A stretch of 64,000 nucleotides of DNA from Cyclobacteriaceae bacterium (GTDB lineage: Bacteria; Bacteroidota; Bacteroidia; Cytophagales; Cyclobacteriaceae), in assembly GCA_028284125.1 (NCBI GenBank), contig JANQSI010000001.1, forward strand, positions 1 to 64,000, given 5' to 3'. Positions 48,613 to 60,463 of the stretch are shown in pieces. How positions within the stretch are numbered: position 1 is the first letter of the stretch; the number at the start of each line of letters is the position of its first letter. The translations under genes were made by a program, and so were the position numbers. Under the pieces are notes generated by a model. The model saw only the letters and a list, made by a program, of their open reading frames with translations. It was not told the DNA's origin and did not search any database.

Positions 48613-50094
48613 TCAAACAACTAAATCATGATAAGTTCCCTCTACATATACCTGGCATTGAATGATCTCCCGTAGTACAGTAGGTTTTAAGAGCGACTTG
48701 CCCATAAACACGCGTCCGCATTCCTGAATCCCTTCAATGATAGATGGATGTGGATGAATCAATTCGGCTAACTCAATAATACTTTTATCTTGTGATATGA
48801 GAAGTGCTACGGCTTGGATGGCACTTGACGCATGTTCACCAACAACACGCATTCCGAGAATTCTCAATTTCTCATCGTTCGTAACCAGAATCTTGATGAA
48901 GCCCTGAGTGTTTCTCATCGCCGTTGCTCTTGGAATACAGCCATAGTCAAGACTCACAACTTTGTAATCAAGTCCTGCTTGTTTTGCCTGGATCTCGTTC
49001 ATTCCCACGCCGGCCACTTCTGGATCCAAAAACATAATCGTTGAAATGTTCTTGTAAATCAACGGCTGTTCAGGCTTTCCAAATATTCGCTCGATAGCAT
49101 AACGTCCTTCCAATTCTCCTACATTGACCAATGAAATATCAGCAGTAATATCCCCTACCGCATAAATGTTGGAAACACTGGTTTGGGTCAAATCATCTTT
49201 GATTCCTCGATCGTCAATTTCAACACCCAAGTCATCTGCCATTAGATCTTCGTACTGTGGAACTCGGCCAACCGAGACAAGCGCCTTCTCTACTTTAAAT
49301 GTTTCTTTTTTCCCATCGGTATATTCGAGGTTATAGACGACCTCTCCATCTTCTATTGACATGTCAACCAGCTTAGAATTCCGATGAATCAATACACCTT
49401 TTTCCTCCAGGTTTCGCTCAATTATCTTCACCACATCTTCATCCTCAATTGGTAGAATTCGATCTCCTTTATCGATAAGATGAACCTTCGTTTGTCCGAA
49501 ATTTGAAAAGATGGTAGCAAACTCACACCCAATCACCCCGGCACCAACAATCACAATGGATTTGGGGAAATCCTCTAGGTTATCCAATCCGTCGCTAGTA
49601 AAAACTATTTTTTCATCAATTGGAAGATGAGATAATTTCCTCGGAACACTTCCGGTCGCAAGAATGATGTAATCTGCTTCGATTTTATCTGTCCCATCCG
49701 AGGTAGTCACTTCAACCTCGTTTTTACCTACTACTTTGCCTTTGCCTTGAATAAATTCAAAAAGATCACGCCCCATTCCAGCATTTATCCTATCCATATG
49801 ACTAGCAAGCAAATTGTAGCGTTCATCAACTGCTGACATTACTTCATCTCGAACATTCTTATAATTGAAGCCATTCGATTCGAGGTTTAGCGCTTGACCA
49901 TGGAGATATAACATTCGTGATTCACGTGATATCTCCCACCACGTTTTACTCCATAAGGCACCTTGATGAATACCGGCACCTCCGAGTTTGTCTTTTTCAA
50001 TAAGGACTACAGATTTTCCAAAATCGAGCGCACGCATAGCGGATGCATATCCAGCTGGACCTCCACCAATGACGCAAACATCATATTTTTTCAT
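48613..50094 (-). CDS. Pyridine nucleotide-disulfide family flavoprotein lacking the redox disulfide
   Basis: 493 residues. FAD motif GGGPAGYASAMRALDFGKSV, NAD(P) motif GAGVIGCEFATIFSNFGQTK, second FAD motif SNIYAVGDITADI and the dimerisation domain (about 360-493) make it a dihydrolipoamide-dehydrogenase relative. Where the active-site CxxxxC should be, the sequence reads GGAGIHQGALWSKTWW, with no cysteine. This resembles soluble transhydrogenases such as SthA (which have THWGTIPSK there) more than Lpd. The distal HPHPSIIEG resembles the usual HxHPT acid-base motif. A pyridine nucleotide transhydrogenase or quinone/other reductase role is inferred. A monocistronic minus-strand gene; the ncRNA locus lies upstream of its start. 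Confidence 0.85.
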   Translation of the reverse strand: MKKYDVCVIGGGPAGYASAMRALDFGKSVVLIEKDKLGGAGIHQGALWSKTWWEISRESRMLYLHGQALNLESNGFNYKNVRDEVMSAVDERYNLLASHMDRINAGMGRDLFEFIQGKGKVVGKNEVEVTTSDGTDKIEADYIILATGSVPRKLSHLPIDEKIVFTSDGLDNLEDFPKSIVIVGAGVIGCEFATIFSNFGQTKVHLIDKGDRILPIEDEDVVKIIERNLEEKGVLIHRNSKLVDMSIEDGEVVYNLEYTDGKKETFKVEKALVSVGRVPQYEDLMADDLGVEIDDRGIKDDLTQTSVSNIYAVGDITADISLVNVGELEGRYAIERIFGKPEQPLIYKNISTIMFLDPEVAGVGMNEIQAKQAGLDYKVVSLDYGCIPRATAMRNTQGFIKILVTNDEKLRILGMRVVGEHASSAIQAVALLISQDKSIIELAELIHPHPSIIEGIQECGRVFMGKSLLKPTVLREIIQCQVYVEGTYHDLVV

Positions 50095-50171
50095 AAATAG
50101 GCGGTTGGGTTCCTTAAAGATAAGCTTTTTGTAATGTTCTATAGAAATAGAACTAAGAAGGGCTTAAAAAG

Positions 50172-50435
50172 CAAAAAGGGTGAGAATTCATTGCTGAATA
50201 TCACCCTTTCAATTCTGCAGGTGCCGTAGCTCCTGCAAAACTCCAAATTACTGTTCGGTGTGCCTTCAGATCCGTTGCTTCAGGTTGCCCTTCCACTCGG
50301 TCTTCCTCTCAACCTTTCAAACTACGCTAACCAAACCGTGGCTTAGCTAGCTTCCCTTCGAAAGGCTGGAAACTCGCGTTTCGGTTTCCTATCCCTCGTT
50401 TGGTATTACTAATGTAAGTTCTAATTTTACATCTC
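50172..50435 (-). ncRNA. Predicted structured small RNA, copy A
   Basis: On the minus strand, a region of about 260 nt begins near a TAAAATTTG promoter-like box (50436-50444) and ends in a rho-independent terminator (50173-50209). Visible helices: GGAAAC with GTTTCC around CGAAACGC; GCTAA-GCC with GG-TTAGC; GGTTG with CAACC; TGCAGG with CCTGCA closing a loop that contains GCTACGGCA. No ORF of note. Copy B shares the unpaired motifs and keeps several helices by paired base changes (C-G to T-A). I do not recognise the family; 6S-like RNA is one option. Strand and ends are inferred. Confidence 0.6.
50173..50209 (-). terminator. Terminator of ncRNA copy A
   Basis: On the minus strand AAAGGGTGA and TCACCCTTT form the outer stem with an inner ATTCA/TGAAT pairing and loop GCAA, followed by a T run. 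Confidence 0.8.
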
Positions 50436-50455
50436 CAAATTTTATAACTACTTAA

Positions 50456-50510
50456 TTATCAACAAGTTTTACACGTAGTTATACCCTACTTATACACCTG
50501 GTTATCCACA
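50456..50510 (+). promoter_or_regulatory. Phased DnaA-box-like cluster A
   Basis: Four TTAT-starting units in one orientation: TTATCAACA (50456), TTATACCCT (50479), TTATACACC (50490) and the perfect DnaA box TTATCCACA (50502). Start-to-start steps are 23, 11 and 12 bp, close to helical repeats. The first and last are both followed by AGTTTT. It lies just upstream of ncRNA copy A. Confidence 0.6.
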
Positions 50511-50607
50511 AGTTTTTAACATTCTCAAGAAAAATCCACGAGTATTGGATGATGAGCTTCAATGAAAGAAATGTTGTTGGGAGTTAAATGATTAAGAGGG
50601 TAGAAAA

Positions 50608-50646
50608 CAAAAAGGGTGAAAATCCATTGCTGAATTTCACCCCTTT
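50608..50646 (-). terminator. Terminator of ncRNA copy B
   Basis: On the minus strand GGGTGAAA and TTTCACCC form the stem (50614-50621 with 50635-50642), followed by a T run. Confidence 0.8.
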
Positions 50647-50875
50647 AATTTTGTAGCTGCCGTAGCATCTACAAAACTCCAAATTACTGTTTGAACTCCT
50701 TCAGAATCCGTGGCTTCAGGTTGCCCATCCACTCGGTGTTCATCTCGAACTCTCAAATTTCGTCAATCAGAACCGAGGTTAAGATTAACTTCCCTTTGAG
50801 TGATCGGAAACTTGCGTTTCGGCTTTCTATCCCTCGTTTGGTGATACTAAGGTAGACCCTAACTTTACAATTCCA
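50608..50875 (-). ncRNA. Predicted structured small RNA, copy B
   Basis: Diverged tandem copy of copy A, offset 436-438 bp, roughly three quarters identical by eye. Conserved unpaired motifs (minus strand) include CCAAACGAGGGATAG, CCGAAACGC, AAGGGAAG, ACCGAGTGGA, GGGCAACCTGAAGC and AACAGTAATTTGGAG. Paired changes keep helices: the stem TGCAG/CTGCA of copy A is TGTAG/CTACA here, and GCTAA/TTAGC is GTTAA/TTGAC. It ends in its own terminator (50608-50646). The promoter box is weaker (CAAAATTTG). No coding potential seen. Confidence 0.6.
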
Positions 50876-50893
50876 AATTTTGTAACTCCCTAG

Positions 50894-50948
50894 TTATCAA
50901 CAAGTTTTGAACCTGATTATACCTTAGTTATGCACTGGGTTATCCACA
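50894..50948 (+). promoter_or_regulatory. Phased DnaA-box-like cluster B
   Basis: TTATCAACA (50894), TTATACCTT (50917), TTATGCACT (50928) and the perfect box TTATCCACA (50940), with steps of 23, 11 and 12 bp, exactly as in cluster A although the sequence between has changed. It lies just upstream of ncRNA copy B. Confidence 0.6.
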
Positions 50949-50959
50949 AGTTTTCTTTA

Positions 50960-51060
50960 TCGATTCGTTTAAAAAAAACCTGCAATACTTGATAATTAGA
51001 TATCTTATACTTAAATTAATACAAGTATTTCATTAAATTATCATATTCATTTCCCAATGG
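50960..51060. other. AT-rich tract beside the DnaA-box clusters (possible unwinding region)
   Basis: About 100 bp of strongly AT-rich DNA beginning with a run of eight A. It contains the inverted repeat AATACTTG (50984-50991) and CAAGTATT (51022-51029) around a 30-bp AT-rich spacer. It may be a duplex-unwinding element, or simply the promoter of the gene at 51091. Confidence 0.4.
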
Positions 51061-51090
51061 ATGGATAATTATCCACTAACGTATACAACC

Positions 51091-51644: not shown

Positions 51645-52370
51645 CTAGACTAGCTGCTCCAATTTAGAAGCCAGTAGCTCCTTTATTGCGGGAATGGACT
51701 CATATAATTGCTTGTATGATTCTGTAACAAAGTATTCTTTTTGGAAAACATCCTTTCTATAAGCGGTGTCTAACATATGCTCTATATTGAACTCATGCTT
51801 AGGCGGTTCTTCACTAAGCGAAAATTTGGTCTCCCCTGCCGATGATAGAATTCCTGCTCCATAGATTCGAAGACCTTGTTCTTCCTGAATCAAGCCAAAT
51901 TCTACCGTGAACCAGTAAACTCTGGAAAGGAGTTGAATGGCTTCATCATTACCAACATAATCCAAACCTATTTTGCTCAACTCTTCCAGGAAGTTCACAA
52001 AATGTTGATTCGTCAATAATGGAACATGAGCAAAGACATCATGAAACATGTCAGGCTCCTCGAGATAGTCCAACTCTCTTTTTTTCCTTAACCAGGTAGT
52101 TGCAGGAAATCGTTTATTGGCCATTAGTTCGAAGAACGTATAATCAGGAACAATCCCCGGAACAACAGCCAATTGCCAACCGGTCGTTTCTTTTAAGATT
52201 TGATTGGTCTCCTTAAAATCAGGAATGATACCGGTCTCGAAATTGGCAATTTTCAATCCCTCCAGATAGGCTTTACTGGCATGCGTAGGAAATTGTTGAA
52301 TCTGTCGATCAAACAGAATCTTCCAAACTTCAAAATCTTCATCACTATAATGTTCGTAAATCTGCTTCAT
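51645..52370 (-). CDS. phhA: Phenylalanine 4-monooxygenase
   Basis: 241 residues, catalytic domain only, the size of bacterial PhhA. Iron ligands: the two His in MFHDVFAHVPLL and the Glu in YWFTVEFGLIQEE. The segments WQLAVVPGIVPDYTFFELMA and ATTWLRKKRELDYLEEPDMF are typical of the family. With tetrahydropterin and O2 it turns phenylalanine into tyrosine. It lies 9 bp behind aroF at the end of the trp operon, all on one strand without a terminator in between, so it probably responds to the trp attenuator. A biosynthetic role (Tyr supply) fits this place better than Phe breakdown, because no hmgA or fah-type genes are near. Confidence 0.93.
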   Translation of the reverse strand: MKQIYEHYSDEDFEVWKILFDRQIQQFPTHASKAYLEGLKIANFETGIIPDFKETNQILKETTGWQLAVVPGIVPDYTFFELMANKRFPATTWLRKKRELDYLEEPDMFHDVFAHVPLLTNQHFVNFLEELSKIGLDYVGNDEAIQLLSRVYWFTVEFGLIQEEQGLRIYGAGILSSAGETKFSLSEEPPKHEFNIEHMLDTAYRKDVFQKEYFVTESYKQLYESIPAIKELLASKLEQLV

Positions 52371-52379
52371 TCCTCTTCC

Positions 52380-53393
52380 TTATTCTGCGTTCGTTAATAG
52401 TTCTCTTAACTGATTTAATCGCTTGATCAATCGTTCGCTCTCTCCGAGATCCAGCGTTTGTTGTCCATCCGAATACGCTTCTTCCGGTTTTGCATGGATC
52501 TCGAAAATGATGCCATCGGCTCCAGCAACTGTGGATGCCATCGCAATTGAATCCACATAATCTCTGATTCCTATGCCGTGAGAAGGATCCGCGATGACTG
52601 GTAAATGAGATTTCTCTCTCAAAATCGGGATCGCATTAATGTCGAAAGTGTTTCTGGATGCACGTTCATAAGTTCGGATTCCACGTTCACAAAGAAGAAG
52701 TCGCTCATTTCCTCCAGAAAAAACATACTCAGCGCTATAAAGTAATTCGTCTATCGTTCCGGAAATACCACGCTTTATCATTACTGGTTTATCTACTTGT
52801 CCCAGCGCATCAAGTAAATTATAGTTTTGAGTGTTTCGAGCTCCAACCTGGAACATATCCACAAAGTCATGCATTGCTTCAATTTGAGAAACTTGCATTA
52901 CTTCTGTCACGATCTTGATTCCATTCTCTTTAGCTATCTCATACCATAATTTCAAGCCATCAATTCCAAGTCCTCGAAATGAGTAAGGAGAACTTCTTGG
53001 TTTATAAACTCCACCCCGCATGATGGCTACATTGTTTTTCTTAAGAAAATCAACCGTATCCTCGATGTTCTTCTCCCCTTCTATGCTACATGGTCCAGCC
53101 ATGATTGAAAAAATGCCATCTCCAATCTTCACATCATCGCCAAGGTCGATCTGCGTTCGATTCACCTTCCACTTTCTTGATACCAACTTGTAGTCATCCG
53201 AAACCACATGGATATCCTTAATCCCATCAATGTGACCAATTTTTCTGATATCAAAAACCTTTTTTCCGGTTCCGATCAAATAATCACTATACTGTGTTTT
53301 GACTGATGTTGTTTTGTATTTTAAGTCACTCAGTTGGTCTTCAACTGAATTCCTCATTTCATCCTTAATCCCTTTTTCTAATTGTATGATCAT
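52380..53393 (-). CDS. aroF: 3-deoxy-7-phosphoheptulonate (DAHP) synthase, type I-beta
   Basis: 337 residues. The first 75 or so form a ferredoxin-like regulatory domain (TGTGKKVFDIRKIGHIDGI-like, with VVSDDYKLVSRKWK), as in Thermotoga-type I-beta enzymes. The TIM barrel has IMAGPCSIEGEKNIEDTVDF, RGGVYKPRSSPYSFRGLG, QVGARNTQNYNLL, VMIKRGISGTIDELL and PVIADPSHGIGIRDYV. No chorismate-mutase domain is present. It joins PEP and erythrose-4-phosphate, the first step of the aromatic pathway. It overlaps trpA by 4 bp, so it is part of the trp transcript; feedback by Phe or Tyr on the N-terminal domain is expected from the family. Confidence 0.94.
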   Translation of the reverse strand: MIIQLEKGIKDEMRNSVEDQLSDLKYKTTSVKTQYSDYLIGTGKKVFDIRKIGHIDGIKDIHVVSDDYKLVSRKWKVNRTQIDLGDDVKIGDGIFSIMAGPCSIEGEKNIEDTVDFLKKNNVAIMRGGVYKPRSSPYSFRGLGIDGLKLWYEIAKENGIKIVTEVMQVSQIEAMHDFVDMFQVGARNTQNYNLLDALGQVDKPVMIKRGISGTIDELLYSAEYVFSGGNERLLLCERGIRTYERASRNTFDINAIPILREKSHLPVIADPSHGIGIRDYVDSIAMASTVAGADGIIFEIHAKPEEAYSDGQQTLDLGESERLIKRLNQLRELLTNAE

Positions 53394-54160
53394 TGCTTCT
53401 TTATTGAATGAACAAATTTCTGAATGCCTTCATCTGAAGGCTCTTTTTCCAATTGATTAATAAATGCACTTCCGATTATTGCTCCATGAGCATGTTCGCA
53501 TGCTATGTTAAATGTTTCGCTATTTGAGATCCCAAATCCAATGAGTCTGGGGCTTTTCAAATTCATATCCTGAATCCGCTGGTAATATTCCAGCTGTCCG
53601 TCTTGAACACTCTCCTTAGCTCCAGTTGTGCTGGCAGATGAAACCATATAAATAAATCCATTCGAAATAGCGTCGATCGTCTCGATTCGTTCTTCAGAGG
53701 TGTTCGGACTTATTAGAAAAATGTTCTCCAAGCCAGCTTCTTCGAAATGGTGCTTGTAAGTATCCAGAAATTCCTGAACTGGAAGATCGGGAATGATTGT
53801 CCCGTCGATTCCAACCTCTTTGCACTTTTTACAAAACTCTTCTATTCCAAACTGGAGGATAGGGTTTACATATCCCATAAGAAGCACAGGTATTGACACT
53901 TTTTCTCTCAAAGTGACTAACTGATCAAACAAAAGTGCCAGTGTCATTCCATTATCCAAAGCTTGCTTCGAACTCTTTTGGATTGTCGGACCGTCCGCTA
54001 CTGGATCTGAAAATGGAATCCCTATCTCCAACATATCAGCTCCACTATTTTCAAGTGCGCTGGCAATTCTAATTGTGTCTCTCAGATCCGGAAACCCCGC
54101 CGTAAAGTAGATATTGAGAATGGAATTCTCTTTTTCAAAAGCTTTGTTTATCCTGTTCAT
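53390..54160 (-). CDS. trpA: Tryptophan synthase alpha subunit
   Basis: 256 residues. NILNIYFTAGFPDLRDTIRI, the catalytic Glu in DMLEIGIPFSDPVADGPTIQ, VPVLLMGYVNP-like IPVLLMGYVNPILQFGIEEF, the Asp in IPDLPVQE and the phosphate-binding FGISNSETF and GAIIGSAF complete the TIM-barrel active site. It cleaves indole-3-glycerol phosphate and channels indole to TrpB. It is separated from trpB by 97 bp, the only large gap in the operon, which holds a possible 17-residue ORF. AroF starts inside its last codons (ATGA overlap). Confidence 0.97.
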   Translation of the reverse strand: MNRINKAFEKENSILNIYFTAGFPDLRDTIRIASALENSGADMLEIGIPFSDPVADGPTIQKSSKQALDNGMTLALLFDQLVTLREKVSIPVLLMGYVNPILQFGIEEFCKKCKEVGIDGTIIPDLPVQEFLDTYKHHFEEAGLENIFLISPNTSEERIETIDAISNGFIYMVSSASTTGAKESVQDGQLEYYQRIQDMNLKSPRLIGFGISNSETFNIACEHAHGAIIGSAFINQLEKEPSDEGIQKFVHSIKKQ

Positions 54161-54204
54161 TTCTAAGAATGACGATTTATTCGATTTATGATTTATTCAA
54201 TTAT

Positions 54205-54258
54205 TTATTCTTTGAACAATCGAGTTAATCCACTAATTCCTTTAATCAAATCAATCAT
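54205..54258 (-). CDS. Possible 17-residue peptide between trpB and trpA
   Basis: The TrpB stop reads TGATG, so an ATG shares its A with the stop, and translation could re-start. The short frame encodes [17 protein letters not shown], which would form an amphipathic helix, and stops at TAA 47 bp before trpA. No family known. It may be a chance ORF in the 97-bp gap or the relic of a longer gene. Confidence 0.2.
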   Translation of the reverse strand: MIDLIKGISGLTRLFKE

Positions 54259-55442
54259 CAATATTTCCCCCATTTGATGTAAGTCTCAAGATCCTTATCT
54301 CCTCTTCCAGACAAATTAATAACCACAACATCTTGTTTATTGAAATCCATTTTTTTCAACACAGCAAAAGCATGTGCCGACTCAATCGCAGGAATAATTC
54401 CTTCCAACTTGCTTAGTTCCACACCAGCGATCATTGCCTCTTCGTCTGTAATGTCATAAAAGGATGCACGCTTAGAATCAAAAAGATGAGCGTGCATTGG
54501 TCCAATTCCAGGATAATCCAGACCGGCAGAAATACTATGTGGCTCTACCACTTGACCGTCTTCAGTTTGCATCAACAACGTTTTGCTTCCATGTAGCACT
54601 CCTGACTTTCCAATGAATGTCGTTGCGGCAGATTTCCCTGTTGCTACTCCATGACCTGCGGCTTCAGCAGCAACTAATTTAACTTCTGTGTTTTCCAAAA
54701 AATGATAAAATGCCCCAGCAGCATTACTTCCTCCACCGACGCATGCGATCACATAATCCGGAGAATTTCGACCTTCTTCTCTGGATAGCTGATTTTTGAT
54801 TTCCTGACTGATTACCGATTGAAACCTCGCTACCATGTCAGGATATGGGTGAGGTCCAACGACAGATCCAATGATGTAATGCGTATCGTCTGGGTGGTTG
54901 ATCCAATGTCGCATGGCTTCATTCGTAGCATCCTTGAGCGTTTTGCTTCCTGAAGTTGCAGCCTTAACCTCGGCTCCCAAAATCTTCATCCGTTCGACGT
55001 TCGGTTTCTGGCGTGCCATGTCCACTTCTCCCATGTAAACAGTACAATCCATTCCCATCAAGGCACAAACAGTTGCGGTAGCTACACCATGTTGGCCTGC
55101 ACCCGTTTCCGCGATGATTTTGTCTTTTCCCAGTTTCTTGGCTAGTAAGATTTGCCCGATGGTATTGTTCACTTTATGTGCTCCGGTATGGCAAAGGTCT
55201 TCACGCTTCAAATAGATTTTTGCGCCATATTTTTCTGACAGTCGATTGGCGAAATAAAGTGGAGTTGGACGACCTACATATGTTTCCAATAATTCCTTAA
55301 ACTCGGCTTGAAAGTCTTCTGAATTAATGATTTCCAAATAGTTTGCCCTTAATTCCTCTACATTCGGATACAACATTTCAGGAATGTAAGCTCCGCCAAA
55401 GCTCCCATAGTATCCGGTATCGCTGACATTGAAACTACTCAT
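54258..55442 (-). CDS. trpB: Tryptophan synthase beta subunit
   Basis: 394 residues, the normal TrpB1 length. The PLP Lys lies in [20 protein letters not shown], the phosphate loop is [10 protein letters not shown], and the segments [40 protein letters not shown] and [16 protein letters not shown] are diagnostic. It joins indole with serine to make tryptophan. It overlaps trpF by 4 bp. After it comes a 97-bp gap before trpA. Confidence 0.98.
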
Positions 55443-56059
55443 AAGTTACTCTTTAGTTCTTGGATCCTGTTGATGTCTTTCATTGCTGGCGAAATTTCAA
55501 AACGACTGTTGACATCAATACCCACAAGATTTTTAATTCCCAATTTGGTTACTTCTCGCATGTCTTTGCTTTCAATTCCTCCACTTAACAAAACAGGAGT
55601 GTCAAGGTTGTAAGTCTTCAAAATGGACCAATCAAAATGACGGCCGGAACCACCATAATCCGGGGTGGCGGTATCGAAAAGAAAGTAATCAGAATATTCA
55701 CTGTAGCTAACCAATGAATAGGGTAAACTATCCAACACGTGGAAAACCTTAATGATCCCAACCCCATGTTTCTTAAGCTCTTGTGAATACTCCAAATCCT
55801 CATCTCCGTGTAACTGGACATAGTCAAGCCCATATTTTTCATATAACTCGAGGACTGTTTCAATGTCTTCATTTACGAAAACTCCAACTTTCTTAATGCT
55901 AAGAGGTATTCTGGCAATAAGATCCTCATCTAGCTCTGCAACAAAACGAGGTGATTTATGATAAAAGATAAACCCAATGAAGTCGGGCTTCAACCTTATC
56001 AATTCCCTGATGTTTTCGGGATCTCGCATTCCGCATACCTTTAATTTCAGCTTATTCAT
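55439..56059 (-). CDS. trpF: Phosphoribosylanthranilate isomerase
   Basis: 206 residues. [20 protein letters not shown] contains the catalytic Cys, and [46 protein letters not shown], the catalytic Asp in [18 protein letters not shown] and [13 protein letters not shown] follow in family order. It performs the Amadori step from PRA to CdRP. Overlaps of 4 bp at both ends couple it to trpC and trpB. Confidence 0.96.
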
Positions 56060-56841
56060 TGCAATTGTTTAATGAATTCTTTTGCAGCTTTTTCGGGACG
56101 TCCATGACTCATGAAAGTCTCTCCAATCAAAAACCCTTCGAACCCGTGATTCTTAAGTTCTTTAACAGTTTCCGGGTCTGACAATCCACTTTCAGATACC
56201 TTAACAAAATCAGATGGAATTGATGACGCCAATGATTTTGAAACCGCAACGTCTGTTTCGAAGGTTCTAAGATTTCGATTATTAACTCCTACCAAATTGG
56301 CATGGTTTCCTATTGATTTTTCCAATTCTTCTGCATTATGAACTTCCAGGAGAACTTCCATTCCCATACTTTGAGCTAATGATCCAAGAGACTCCAATTC
56401 ATCTTTATCCAAAATGGCAGCTATCAATAAGATTACATCAGCGCCTATGGATTTAGCCTCAATCACCTGGTATTCATCAATAATGAAGTCTTTTCGAAGA
56501 ATTGGACAAAAATTGAAAGCACGAGCTTCTTTTAGGTCCTCAGCGGAACCTCCAAAAAACTCCTTGTCGGTAAGGATAGACAAGCCGGAAGCTCCCGCCT
56601 GCATGTAACCAATGGACGTTTTTTCAATGGAGACGTGTTCATTAATCACTCCTTTTGATGGAGATTTCCGTTTGATTTCGGCGATTACCCCCGACTTATC
56701 TTCTCGCTGGATGTACTTTCTTAGTGAAACTGGTTGTCCCTCAAAATAGGTGCTTTTCTCTAGTAATTTGACTGGGTAAAGTTCTTTTTGAGAAGCTATT
56801 TCCTTCTGCTTATGTGCTACTATTTTTTCTAGTATGTCCAT
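56056..56841 (-). CDS. trpC: Indole-3-glycerol phosphate synthase
   Basis: 261 residues. VIAEIKRKSPSKGVINEHVS holds the catalytic Lys pair, GASGLSILTDKEFFGGSAED the next motif, CPILRKDFIIDEYQVIEAKS the catalytic Lys on strand 3, and LLEVHNAEELEK, LVGVNNRNLRTFETD, VSESGLSDPETV and GFLIGETFM complete the barrel. It closes the indole ring by decarboxylation of CdRP. It is a free-standing TrpC, not fused to TrpF. One base separates its start from the trpD stop. Confidence 0.97.
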   Translation of the reverse strand: MDILEKIVAHKQKEIASQKELYPVKLLEKSTYFEGQPVSLRKYIQREDKSGVIAEIKRKSPSKGVINEHVSIEKTSIGYMQAGASGLSILTDKEFFGGSAEDLKEARAFNFCPILRKDFIIDEYQVIEAKSIGADVILLIAAILDKDELESLGSLAQSMGMEVLLEVHNAEELEKSIGNHANLVGVNNRNLRTFETDVAVSKSLASSIPSDFVKVSESGLSDPETVKELKNHGFEGFLIGETFMSHGRPEKAAKEFIKQLQ

Positions 56842-56842
56842 T

Positions 56843-57835
56843 CTATTTGTTGACCTTTATGAATTTTTCGAACGCTTCTTTTGCGTCTCCTGAATCCAAT
56901 GAATTTTTAGCCTCTTCAATGCCTTTGTTAAATGAAATTTGTTTCGCTGTTGAAATAGCAAGACCTGCATTCGCCACAACAGCTGCTGACTGTGCCTTAG
57001 TTCCTTTCTTATTCAAAACATCAAGGAAAATTTTAGCCGAATCTTCGATGGTTTCTCCTCCGTACAAAGACTCCTGATTCAACAGTTCAAAACCAAACTC
57101 TTCAGGTGTGAAAAGCTTTTCTTCATTGTTAGAAATTAGCTTGAAATCACTTGTTAGAGAAATCTCATCATATCCATCTAGTGAATGAACAATTGAAAAG
57201 TTTTTATCCGTATTCTGATATAAATAACCGTACAATCTTGCCAATTCAAGGTTAAAAACTCCTACCAGCTGATTCGGCGGGAATGAAGGATTGACCATAG
57301 GGCCCAACATGTTGAAAAAGGTCTTTACCCCAAGTTCTTTTCGAATTGGTCCTACATTTTTCATCGCCGGATGGAAAAGTGGTGCATGCATAAAACAAAT
57401 GCCACTCGTATCCATCGATCGCTTCATCTGATCGGGCGCTCCAGAGAACTTACATCCCAGCGATTCGAGTACGTTGGATGAGCCGCTTACTGAGGAAACT
57501 CCGTAGTTGCCGTGCTTCGCCACATTTACTCCGGCTCCTGCAACAATGAATGAAGAAATAGTTGAAATATTAAATGTATTCTTGCTGTCTCCTCCTGTTC
57601 CACAAACATCGATGGCATTATATCCATCCAAGTCGACTTGGACGCAAAGCTCGAGCATCGCATCTCGGAATCCTTCGAGTTCTTCGACGCGAATCGCACG
57701 CATCAGATAAATGGTTAAAAATGCTGCCACTTGACTATTGTTAAATACTCCAGTGGCCAGCCCGGTCAAAACCTCTTTGGCCTCTTCTTTCGAGAGCGTC
57801 TGATTTTGAATTAAGCGATTAAGAACTTCTTTCAT
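56843..57835 (-). CDS. trpD: Anthranilate phosphoribosyltransferase
   Basis: 330 residues. The PRPP-binding motif is IDVCGTGGDSKNTFNISTIS, followed by VAKHGNYGVSSVSGSSNVLE and LGVKTFFNMLGPMVNPSFPP; the N-terminal helical part starts LNRLIQNQTLSKEEAKEVL. It moves the phosphoribosyl group from PRPP to anthranilate. It is not fused to TrpG here. A 4-bp overlap with trpG is present. Confidence 0.97.
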   Translation of the reverse strand: MKEVLNRLIQNQTLSKEEAKEVLTGLATGVFNNSQVAAFLTIYLMRAIRVEELEGFRDAMLELCVQVDLDGYNAIDVCGTGGDSKNTFNISTISSFIVAGAGVNVAKHGNYGVSSVSGSSNVLESLGCKFSGAPDQMKRSMDTSGICFMHAPLFHPAMKNVGPIRKELGVKTFFNMLGPMVNPSFPPNQLVGVFNLELARLYGYLYQNTDKNFSIVHSLDGYDEISLTSDFKLISNNEEKLFTPEEFGFELLNQESLYGGETIEDSAKIFLDVLNKKGTKAQSAAVVANAGLAISTAKQISFNKGIEEAKNSLDSGDAKEAFEKFIKVNK

Positions 57836-60043: not shown

Positions 60044-60463
60044 ATGTTATCCACAGAAGACCAAATTAGCATTCTAGTTCACCTTTCAAAGGCAGACAAG
60101 GTGATTGCTGAAGAAGAATACCGTCTAATCATTCATGTAGCAGAAGGTCTGGGCATGAATAGTGATGATGCCGCCAGGATCATCAATGACCCTAACCCGA
60201 TTCCAAAGCTGAACGATTTACCGCCGGATGAGAAATTCGAATACTTGCTGAACGTTGTGAGGTTAATGAAAGCAGATGGTAAGATCCATCAAAAAGAAGT
60301 TTCATTTTGCGAAAAACTAGCGTTCAGACTTGGCTACAAACCAGGCGTCATATCAGAGCTGTCTGCATATATCTACAGAGATCCAGACATTAACACAAAT
60401 CGGTCCTATTTAAGATCAATTGTTGATCAACATTTGATTCCCATGAACGAACAGAAAGACTAA
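60044..60463 (+). CDS. TerB-like (co-chaperone-type) small protein
   Basis: 139 residues, all-helical TerB fold with two copies of the acidic helix motif: LVHLSKADKVIAEEEYRLII and VVRLMKADGKIHQKEVSFCE. The ADGKI/ADKVI turns are the TerB metal-binding signature. No tellurite-resistance genes surround it, so a stress or envelope-linked role is as likely as any. A TAACTTTC box near 60034 is close to the -7 consensus, 3-5 bases before the ATG, so the message may be nearly leaderless. It is divergent from the trp leader across 133 bp. Confidence 0.85.
   Translation: MLSTEDQISILVHLSKADKVIAEEEYRLIIHVAEGLGMNSDDAARIINDPNPIPKLNDLPPDEKFEYLLNVVRLMKADGKIHQKEVSFCEKLAFRLGYKPGVISELSAYIYRDPDINTNRSYLRSIVDQHLIPMNEQKD

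Follow-up and report, generated by a model that had tools for sequence, protein, structure and literature searches.

What is carried by a gap without genes in which closely similar sequences occur twice, head to tail? The gap lies in the window analysed here, 64 000 nucleotides of a contig of a Cyclobacteriaceae bacterium, and an earlier note made from the sequence of the window had read it as a tandem pair of structured, terminator-ended small RNAs. The gap, put there at 967 bp, is present and measures 966 bp (50095-51060). It lies between an lpd-like ORF on the minus strand, which ends at 50094 and contains the Pfam domains Pyr_redox_2 and Pyr_redox_dim, and an ORF of 191 amino acids on the plus strand, which starts at 51061 and resembles an outer-membrane protein by eye. 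The two copies of ~345 bp were recovered as described, head to tail on the minus strand, with 80% identity (blastn); a MAFFT alignment placed stretches of 381 bases from A and B over 385 columns. The longest ORF overlapping either copy has 54 amino acids and is encoded on the opposite strand.

Along the minus strand, 5' to 3', each copy begins with a DnaA-box-like array, followed by a promoter-like element and a leader. The structured domain comes next and spans 166-168 nt; after it come a hairpin capped by a C(UACG)G tetraloop and, last, a terminator-like hairpin and U-run. Copy A is predicted to start at ~50430, as judged from the promoter-like element, and to end at ~50172 in the U-run. The structured domains and predicted transcripts are:

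50242-50407, minus strand: structured domain of copy A
50678-50845, minus strand: structured domain of copy B
50172-50430, minus strand: RNA of copy A, predicted transcript of ~259 nt, from an alignment of 14 copies
50608-50868, minus strand: RNA of copy B, predicted transcript of ~261 nt, on the same basis

Folding z-scores of −6.21 and −3.50 were obtained for copies A and B, and none of 200 shuffled sequences folded as well. The elements of the fold were located as follows:

50398-50403, minus strand: P1, 5' strand, copy A, CCAAAC, pairing with 50243-50248
50243-50248, minus strand: P1, 3' strand, copy A, ATTTGG, with covariation in 26 copies
50369-50382, minus strand: P2 hairpin, copy A, GAAAC[GCGA]GTTTC, 100% of cells paired in 26 sequences
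50308-50367, minus strand: P3, long interrupted hairpin, copy A, limits approximate and set by eye
50271-50301, minus strand: P4 hairpin with GCAA tetraloop, copy A, helices 7-8 of the 26-sequence model
50210-50240, minus strand: C(UACG)G tetraloop hairpin, copy A
50174-50209, minus strand: terminator hairpin with the first part of the U-run, copy A, read by eye
50836-50841, minus strand: P1, 5' strand, copy B
50679-50684, minus strand: P1, 3' strand, copy B
50807-50820, minus strand: P2 hairpin, copy B, GAAAC[GCAA]GTTTC
50648-50677, minus strand: C(UACG)G hairpin, copy B
50611-50646, minus strand: terminator hairpin, copy B, read by eye

The domain is closed by P1 (CCAAAY/RUUUGG), in which three of six pairs show two-sided changes among 26 sequences and the other three are invariant; the innermost pair is an unpaired C-A in both copies. 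P1 is missing from the minimum-energy folds of A and B computed singly, though those of some relatives include it; its placement in these two copies rests on comparison. P2 has the family form GAAAC-loop-GUUUC, with a loop that is often GNRA; an alternative register, GGAAAC with GTTTCC, was dropped because it is broken in some rows, whereas GAAAC/GTTTC pairs in 26 of 26. P3 comprises helices 3-6 of the 26-sequence model, with 92, 80, 86 and 74% of cells paired. The GCAA tetraloop of P4 is present in most close members, and P4 aligns poorly in distant members. The CCCTTTTTG end was found in all 14 aligned rows, and the medium-form counterpart of the C(UACG)G hairpin also shows pair changes. Across 48 aligned 5' cores there is no variation at A33 or G36-A37-T38-A39, and G34 is conserved in at least 90%, giving an AGRGAUA strand after P1, and AACWGUA is common by eye before the P1 3' strand. 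A candidate pseudoknot pairing CUAC in the leader with GUAG ahead of P1 was visible by eye in many members and missing in others, and was dropped.

Both sets of compensatory changes on which the earlier note had based its case for a functional RNA were located in this fold: TGCAG/CTGCA, which becomes TGTAG/CTACA, belongs to the tetraloop-capped hairpin that precedes the terminator, and GCTAA/TTAGC, which becomes GTTAA/TTGAC, lies in the middle of P3. The motifs that it had listed as shared and unpaired need correction, as three of the four lie for the most part within hairpins; CCGAAACGC forms the loop of P2 together with the 5' arm, GGGCAACC the GCAA-capped stem and GCTACGGC the C(UACG)G-capped stem. 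Its terminators can be read by eye but were not returned by a mechanical scan, which found neither a terminator nor a sigma-70-type promoter at the RNA starts; as the scan is confined to short loops and to a single promoter type, its result is not taken as disproof.

Covariation was borne out in homologues. In 14 copies found by blastn, the 33 pairs of the model were 91% formed, with 42 two-sided changes and 15 pairs that carried them; on four measures out of five the observed value was reached by none of 500 shuffles, and on the fifth (further pair types) by 249. In 26 copies aligned to the model, pairs were 89% formed, with two-sided changes in 165 cells and at 29 of 35 pairs, and none of 500 shuffles matched on any of the five measures, in an alignment that was fitted to the model and leans toward it and with shuffles that ignore relatedness. 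For this alignment (R2, see below) two of 28 sequences, G313 and G009, which look real by eye but align poorly, were dropped. Sliding the partners by one column lowered pairing in the 26 copies from 89% to 45-50% of cells, and a separate alignment of 17 copies of the medium form (MAFFT/RNAalifold; two of 19 sequences, L160 and L273:5552-5806, were left out as divergent) showed 23 of the 48 predicted pairs to have changed on both sides. Both results speak against an artefact of fitting. Homologues whose changes break the helices, a check that the earlier note had proposed, were not found in these tests.

The earlier note did not recognise the family and had suggested a search for known ones, which returned none: at gathering thresholds, Rfam 15 gave no matches in the window, in 12 homologous loci or in 17 homologous loci. 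A permissive scan of the locus (E<=10) yielded 10 matches, all far below gathering, of which the best was IMES-5 on the plus strand (E 0.043, 23.5 bits against 96.1 required), and an Algoriphagus copy had no Rfam match at E<=3. Among the open-licence papers listed, judged by title and start of abstract, none dealt with structured or noncoding RNA in this lineage; one was a genome announcement for Algoriphagus/Roseivirga (PMC10112063). The copies almost certainly belong to a new family of structured RNA.

How far the family extends was determined with three models (R1, R2 and R3) in genome samples of the family, the order and the phylum, which overlap. Search R1 matched 21 of 390 family genomes (E<=0.01; three weak), and R2 matched 29 of 390 order genomes (E<=0.01; three of these rejected) and reached a second family of the order, f8, with genomes of 1.2-1.6 Mb and two matches in eight of its nine matched genomes. 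Model matches in G213, G600 and G682 look like coding sequence or chance by eye and were not counted. R3 models 68 positions of the 5' core, was built from 48 sequences and matched 88 of 295 host-family genomes (E<=0.001), which represent 31 of the 84 genera; two or three matches occur in 23 of these genomes, and the remaining 207 genomes of the sample had no R3 match. The RNA family, beyond the reach of any Rfam 15 model, is common in its host family. In the order sample R3 matched 66 of 390 genomes at E<=0.1 and 47 at E<=0.001, the latter comprising 37 of the host family, nine of f8 and one of f15 (G547; E 6.7e-6, yet the core expression finds nothing in its stretch). The phylum sample, of which the order is a part, gave matches at E<=0.1 in 17 of 395 genomes; five of these reach E<=0.001, all from the host family, outside which no credible match was obtained. 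The other 12, at E 0.004-0.1, are at the level expected by chance and were not counted. An exact 26-letter pattern retrieved 24 stretches from a named genome collection, all titled as this group or as Cytophagaceae/Cytophagia, from Cyclobacterium, Aquiflexum, Cognataquiflexum, Ekhidna lutea (placed by NCBI in Cytophagales, Reichenbachiellaceae), Algoriphagus, Roseivirga, Pararhodonellum and uncultured relatives. This spread, the box array and the long forms described below were absent from the earlier note.

The RNA occurs in three size classes of ~275, 335 and 650 nt. Lengths, available for the 24 of 49 copies in which a simple terminator rule worked (it failed for 25), were 272-279 nt (8 copies), 333-340 nt (6) and 647-679 nt (9), with one outlier of 1355 nt. 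Some lineages have lengthened the RNA through repetition of a module. The long forms of Algoriphagus contain ~3-4 repeats of a module of the type GGGCRCAAAGG-hairpin-GAGACGG-tetraloop-CCGCAGAAGUGC, flanked by the common ends; of the 42 module pieces collected, a few are artefacts of the search expression. The distance from core to 3' motif is ~540 nt in L130, L132 and L139. A second kind of long form is found in Roseivirga and a relative (L131, L137, L140), with more than 500 nt from core to 3' motif in L137 and L104; the same expression gave no match to the Algoriphagus module in the Roseivirga-type long forms L103, L104 and L137. Two cores only 160 bp from each other occur in G443; by eye, no array separates them.

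Upstream of both RNAs the promoter-like elements and box sequences are arranged as follows:

50436-50446, minus strand: promoter −7-like element, copy A, TATAAAATTTG along the RNA, conserved in homologues
50874-50884, minus strand: promoter −7-like element, copy B, TACAAAATTTG along the RNA, conserved in homologues
50456-50464, minus strand: DnaA-box-like variant, copy A, TTATCAACA on the plus strand and TGTTGATAA along the RNA
50490-50498, minus strand: DnaA-box-like, copy A, TTATACACC on the plus strand, one letter off
50502-50510, minus strand: perfect DnaA-box sequence, copy A, TTATCCACA on the plus strand
50894-50902, minus strand: DnaA-box-like variant, copy B, TTATCAACA on the plus strand
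50928-50936, minus strand: DnaA-box-like, copy B, TTATGCACT on the plus strand, one letter off
50940-50948, minus strand: perfect DnaA-box sequence, copy B, TTATCCACA on the plus strand

The −7-like elements keep only TTTG of the Bacteroidota promoter consensus, which we take to be TAnnTTTG. The variant box of copy A departs from the TTATNCACA consensus. Enrichment of boxes was assessed at 64 non-redundant loci picked via the RNA core, independently of the boxes. Exact TGTGNAWAA occurred 0.98 times per 140 nt upstream in the direction of the RNA versus 0.03 times in the opposite direction, compared with 0.016 for both directions together in 2045 control windows elsewhere in the same loci. In 571 intergenic windows upstream of genes the values were 0.007 in the gene direction and 0.021 in the opposite one, and none of these windows had two boxes in the gene direction. 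At least one exact box was present at 49 of the 64 loci, at least two at 10 and at least three at four, with none at 15; perfect TGTGGATAA occurred at 36. The spacing of near-boxes peaks at 11-12 bp, and the array ends at the promoter-like element. These are TTATNCACA-class 9-mers in one direction at close spacing, some of them degenerate.

In the host genome, TGTGNATAAC-N2-4-GTGNATAA was found only at the two copies. Of 10 relatives searched with a strict pair, TGTGNAWAA-N2-4-TGTGNAWAA, G103 alone had it at the RNA array (two overlapping matches); in each of G003, G005, G006, G007 and G118 it occurred at one place away from the RNA, and in four genomes nowhere. The reversed control gave one match. 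Since the strict pair is rarely at the RNA array, most arrays must consist of one or two exact boxes together with degenerate ones. In G005 the strict pair (L270:5112-5131) sits between yidC (Pfam 60KD_IMP, YidC_periplas) and parA-parB (AAA_31/CbiA, HTH_ParB, ParB_N), and it adjoins a parA-like gene by eye in G006, G003 and G007 (L209, L211, L212). The exact pairs beside parA suggest that the lineage uses such boxes at a segregation locus. DnaA domain IV was detected in five of six genomes searched, reading alike, with an intact stretch containing SIGYHFGGRDHSTVIHA, and had no match in the sixth, the fragmented G012. Several isolated sites were also noted. On contig 5 of G118, near 1763000 (L213/L271), there is a cluster of GTGGATAA-type repeats, possibly another DnaA site, beside which no RNA core was found. 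An RNA copy in G261 (L274:4634) has the core and 3' motif without a recognisable box array and begins ~50 bp after an ORF. In G043 a 26-bp match to the promoter region of the RNA stands alone, without an RNA core (L010:1501-1526); contig 44 of this genome has a separate R3 match in which the core expression finds nothing.

An origin of replication as the identity of the locus was rejected on sampled GC skew in G005, G131 and G159. In G005 skew turns from negative to positive near 2.0 Mb and the RNA locus lies at 3.45 of 4.17 Mb, away also from parAB (0.285 Mb); in G131 and G159 the distance of the RNA locus to the skew turn differs too. The yidC-parAB region is often near origins, and in G005 the yidC-parAB site at 0.285 Mb and the skew turn at ~2.0 Mb disagree as markers of the origin.

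Judging by the box sequences, DnaA is rather likely to be the ligand of the array, and the RNA itself probably serves as a scaffold or regulator in trans. We lean towards reading the two copies as paralogous genes for free-standing noncoding RNAs of a new structured, trans-acting family, the transcription of which would be set by DnaA. In this mechanism, DnaA would bind the array cooperatively and set transcription, so that RNA output would follow the amount or ATP state of DnaA and with it the replication cycle or growth state. The RNA would serve as a folded scaffold that acts in trans, either by itself or together with a protein, like raiA/ModT or OLE RNA, and perhaps as an oligomer of the two paralogues. 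More tentative, and in our view rather doubtful, is the full combination of a modular RNA ranging from ~260 to ~650 nt by means of a repeated tetraloop-capped module, direct control by DnaA, a replication-state signal passed to a target in trans and possibly an oligomer of two paralogues.

The array could instead be the functional part, as DNA, with transcription of the RNA doing nothing more than driving polymerase past a site for titration or recharging of DnaA, of the kind named datA and DARS. Box sequences in one direction at most loci would be explained in this way; structural selection on the RNA itself in two size classes, a distance to the skew turn that is not fixed in three genomes and the 15 of 64 loci without an exact box would not, and we regard this explanation as unlikely. 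Alternatively, the RNA might be the 6S RNA of this lineage, or some other RNA polymerase-binding regulator. It shares with 6S RNA (RF00013, RF01685) a size range and a terminator-ended gene, and paired 6S genes occur in some bacteria. RF00013 matched none of eight and RF01685 none of five host-lineage genomes, so that the 6S slot looks empty, unless the models miss the lineage; this absence says little, given that RF00013 was detected in six of 14 control genomes, Bacteroides not among them, and RF01685 in none. The 6S models do not match the copies, however, and the fold differs in topology, with a closed, multibranched consensus domain in place of a rod-like helix with a central open-promoter-like bubble, which leaves a slim chance for this identity.

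Copy A lies upstream of the lpd-like gene on the same strand, and its closed domain followed by a terminator would suit a leader or riboswitch acting on that gene in cis. The nearest ORF downstream shares the strand of the RNA in nine of 25 copies and is convergent in eight, at 82-176 bp from the domain (G005b, G006b, G118b, G050b, G205, G149, G242, G041); in the other eight it was unassigned, the fetched stretch being short or the ORFs overlapping. A same-strand gene directly downstream is thus not common to all homologues. The convergent neighbours led us to reject a riboswitch for the family as a whole and indicate that the RNA is free-standing. Each copy in the window has its own array and terminator, and downstream genes vary between genera, making control in cis highly improbable. 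The scanned neighbours, which likewise vary between genera, included Amidase, an AI-2E transporter, a beta-lactamase-family protein, DUF3108, MacB/FtsX and proteins without a family; a MacB/FtsX-type permease gene was seen upstream of the RNA in G134, G178, G205 and G105 (L084, L086, L088, L090). Patchy presence, paired copies and an iteron-like array would also be compatible with part of a mobile element such as a retron, an intron or an integrated plasmid origin. Against this, the exact core pattern had no match in viral contigs, blastn of both copies found none in plasmid and phage records, no reverse transcriptase or recombinase was identified among 20 neighbour proteins scanned with Pfam, and the order of ORFs around the pair, compared by ORF size, is kept in the host genus; a mobile origin has very little probability.

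Other intricately structured bacterial RNAs offer the closest parallels, and the likeness is one of kind, not of sequence; the novelty claimed here concerns the RNA lineage. We know of no DnaA-box array and no modular long forms in the raiA motif RNA, also called ModT. That RNA is likewise free-standing, highly structured, conserved and active in trans, as we propose for the RNA described here, and its molecular mechanism is given as open (PMC11706538). It stems from other phyla (Bacillota, Actinomycetota), and its Rfam model did not match the copies. OLE, ROOL and GOLLD are larger than the basic unit of ~260 nt found here. They are described as large and intricately folded bacterial RNAs (PMC12286853), and they have such folding in common with the new RNA; no Rfam model for them gave a match. 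On the DNA side, the array resembles DnaA-box clusters of E. coli. It shares TTATNCACA-class boxes in one direction, 11-12 bp apart, with oriC, datA and DARS clusters and DnaA-regulated promoters; unlike these, it precedes a noncoding RNA gene and lies away from the skew-inferred origin. If DnaA controls the RNA, a structured noncoding RNA would be coupled to the replication initiator, and the RNA may thereby be tied to the replication cycle. To our knowledge no RNA of this type has been described, and the open-licence papers listed, judged by title and abstract beginning, include none in Bacteroidota.

Two further features of the window were recorded. A third perfect TTATCCACA occurs singly at 60047-60055. 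On the minus strand, a cluster at 51645-57835 that adjoins the RNAs contains a gene for a biopterin-dependent hydroxylase (Pfam) and genes resembling, by eye, aroF and trpA, B, F, C and D.
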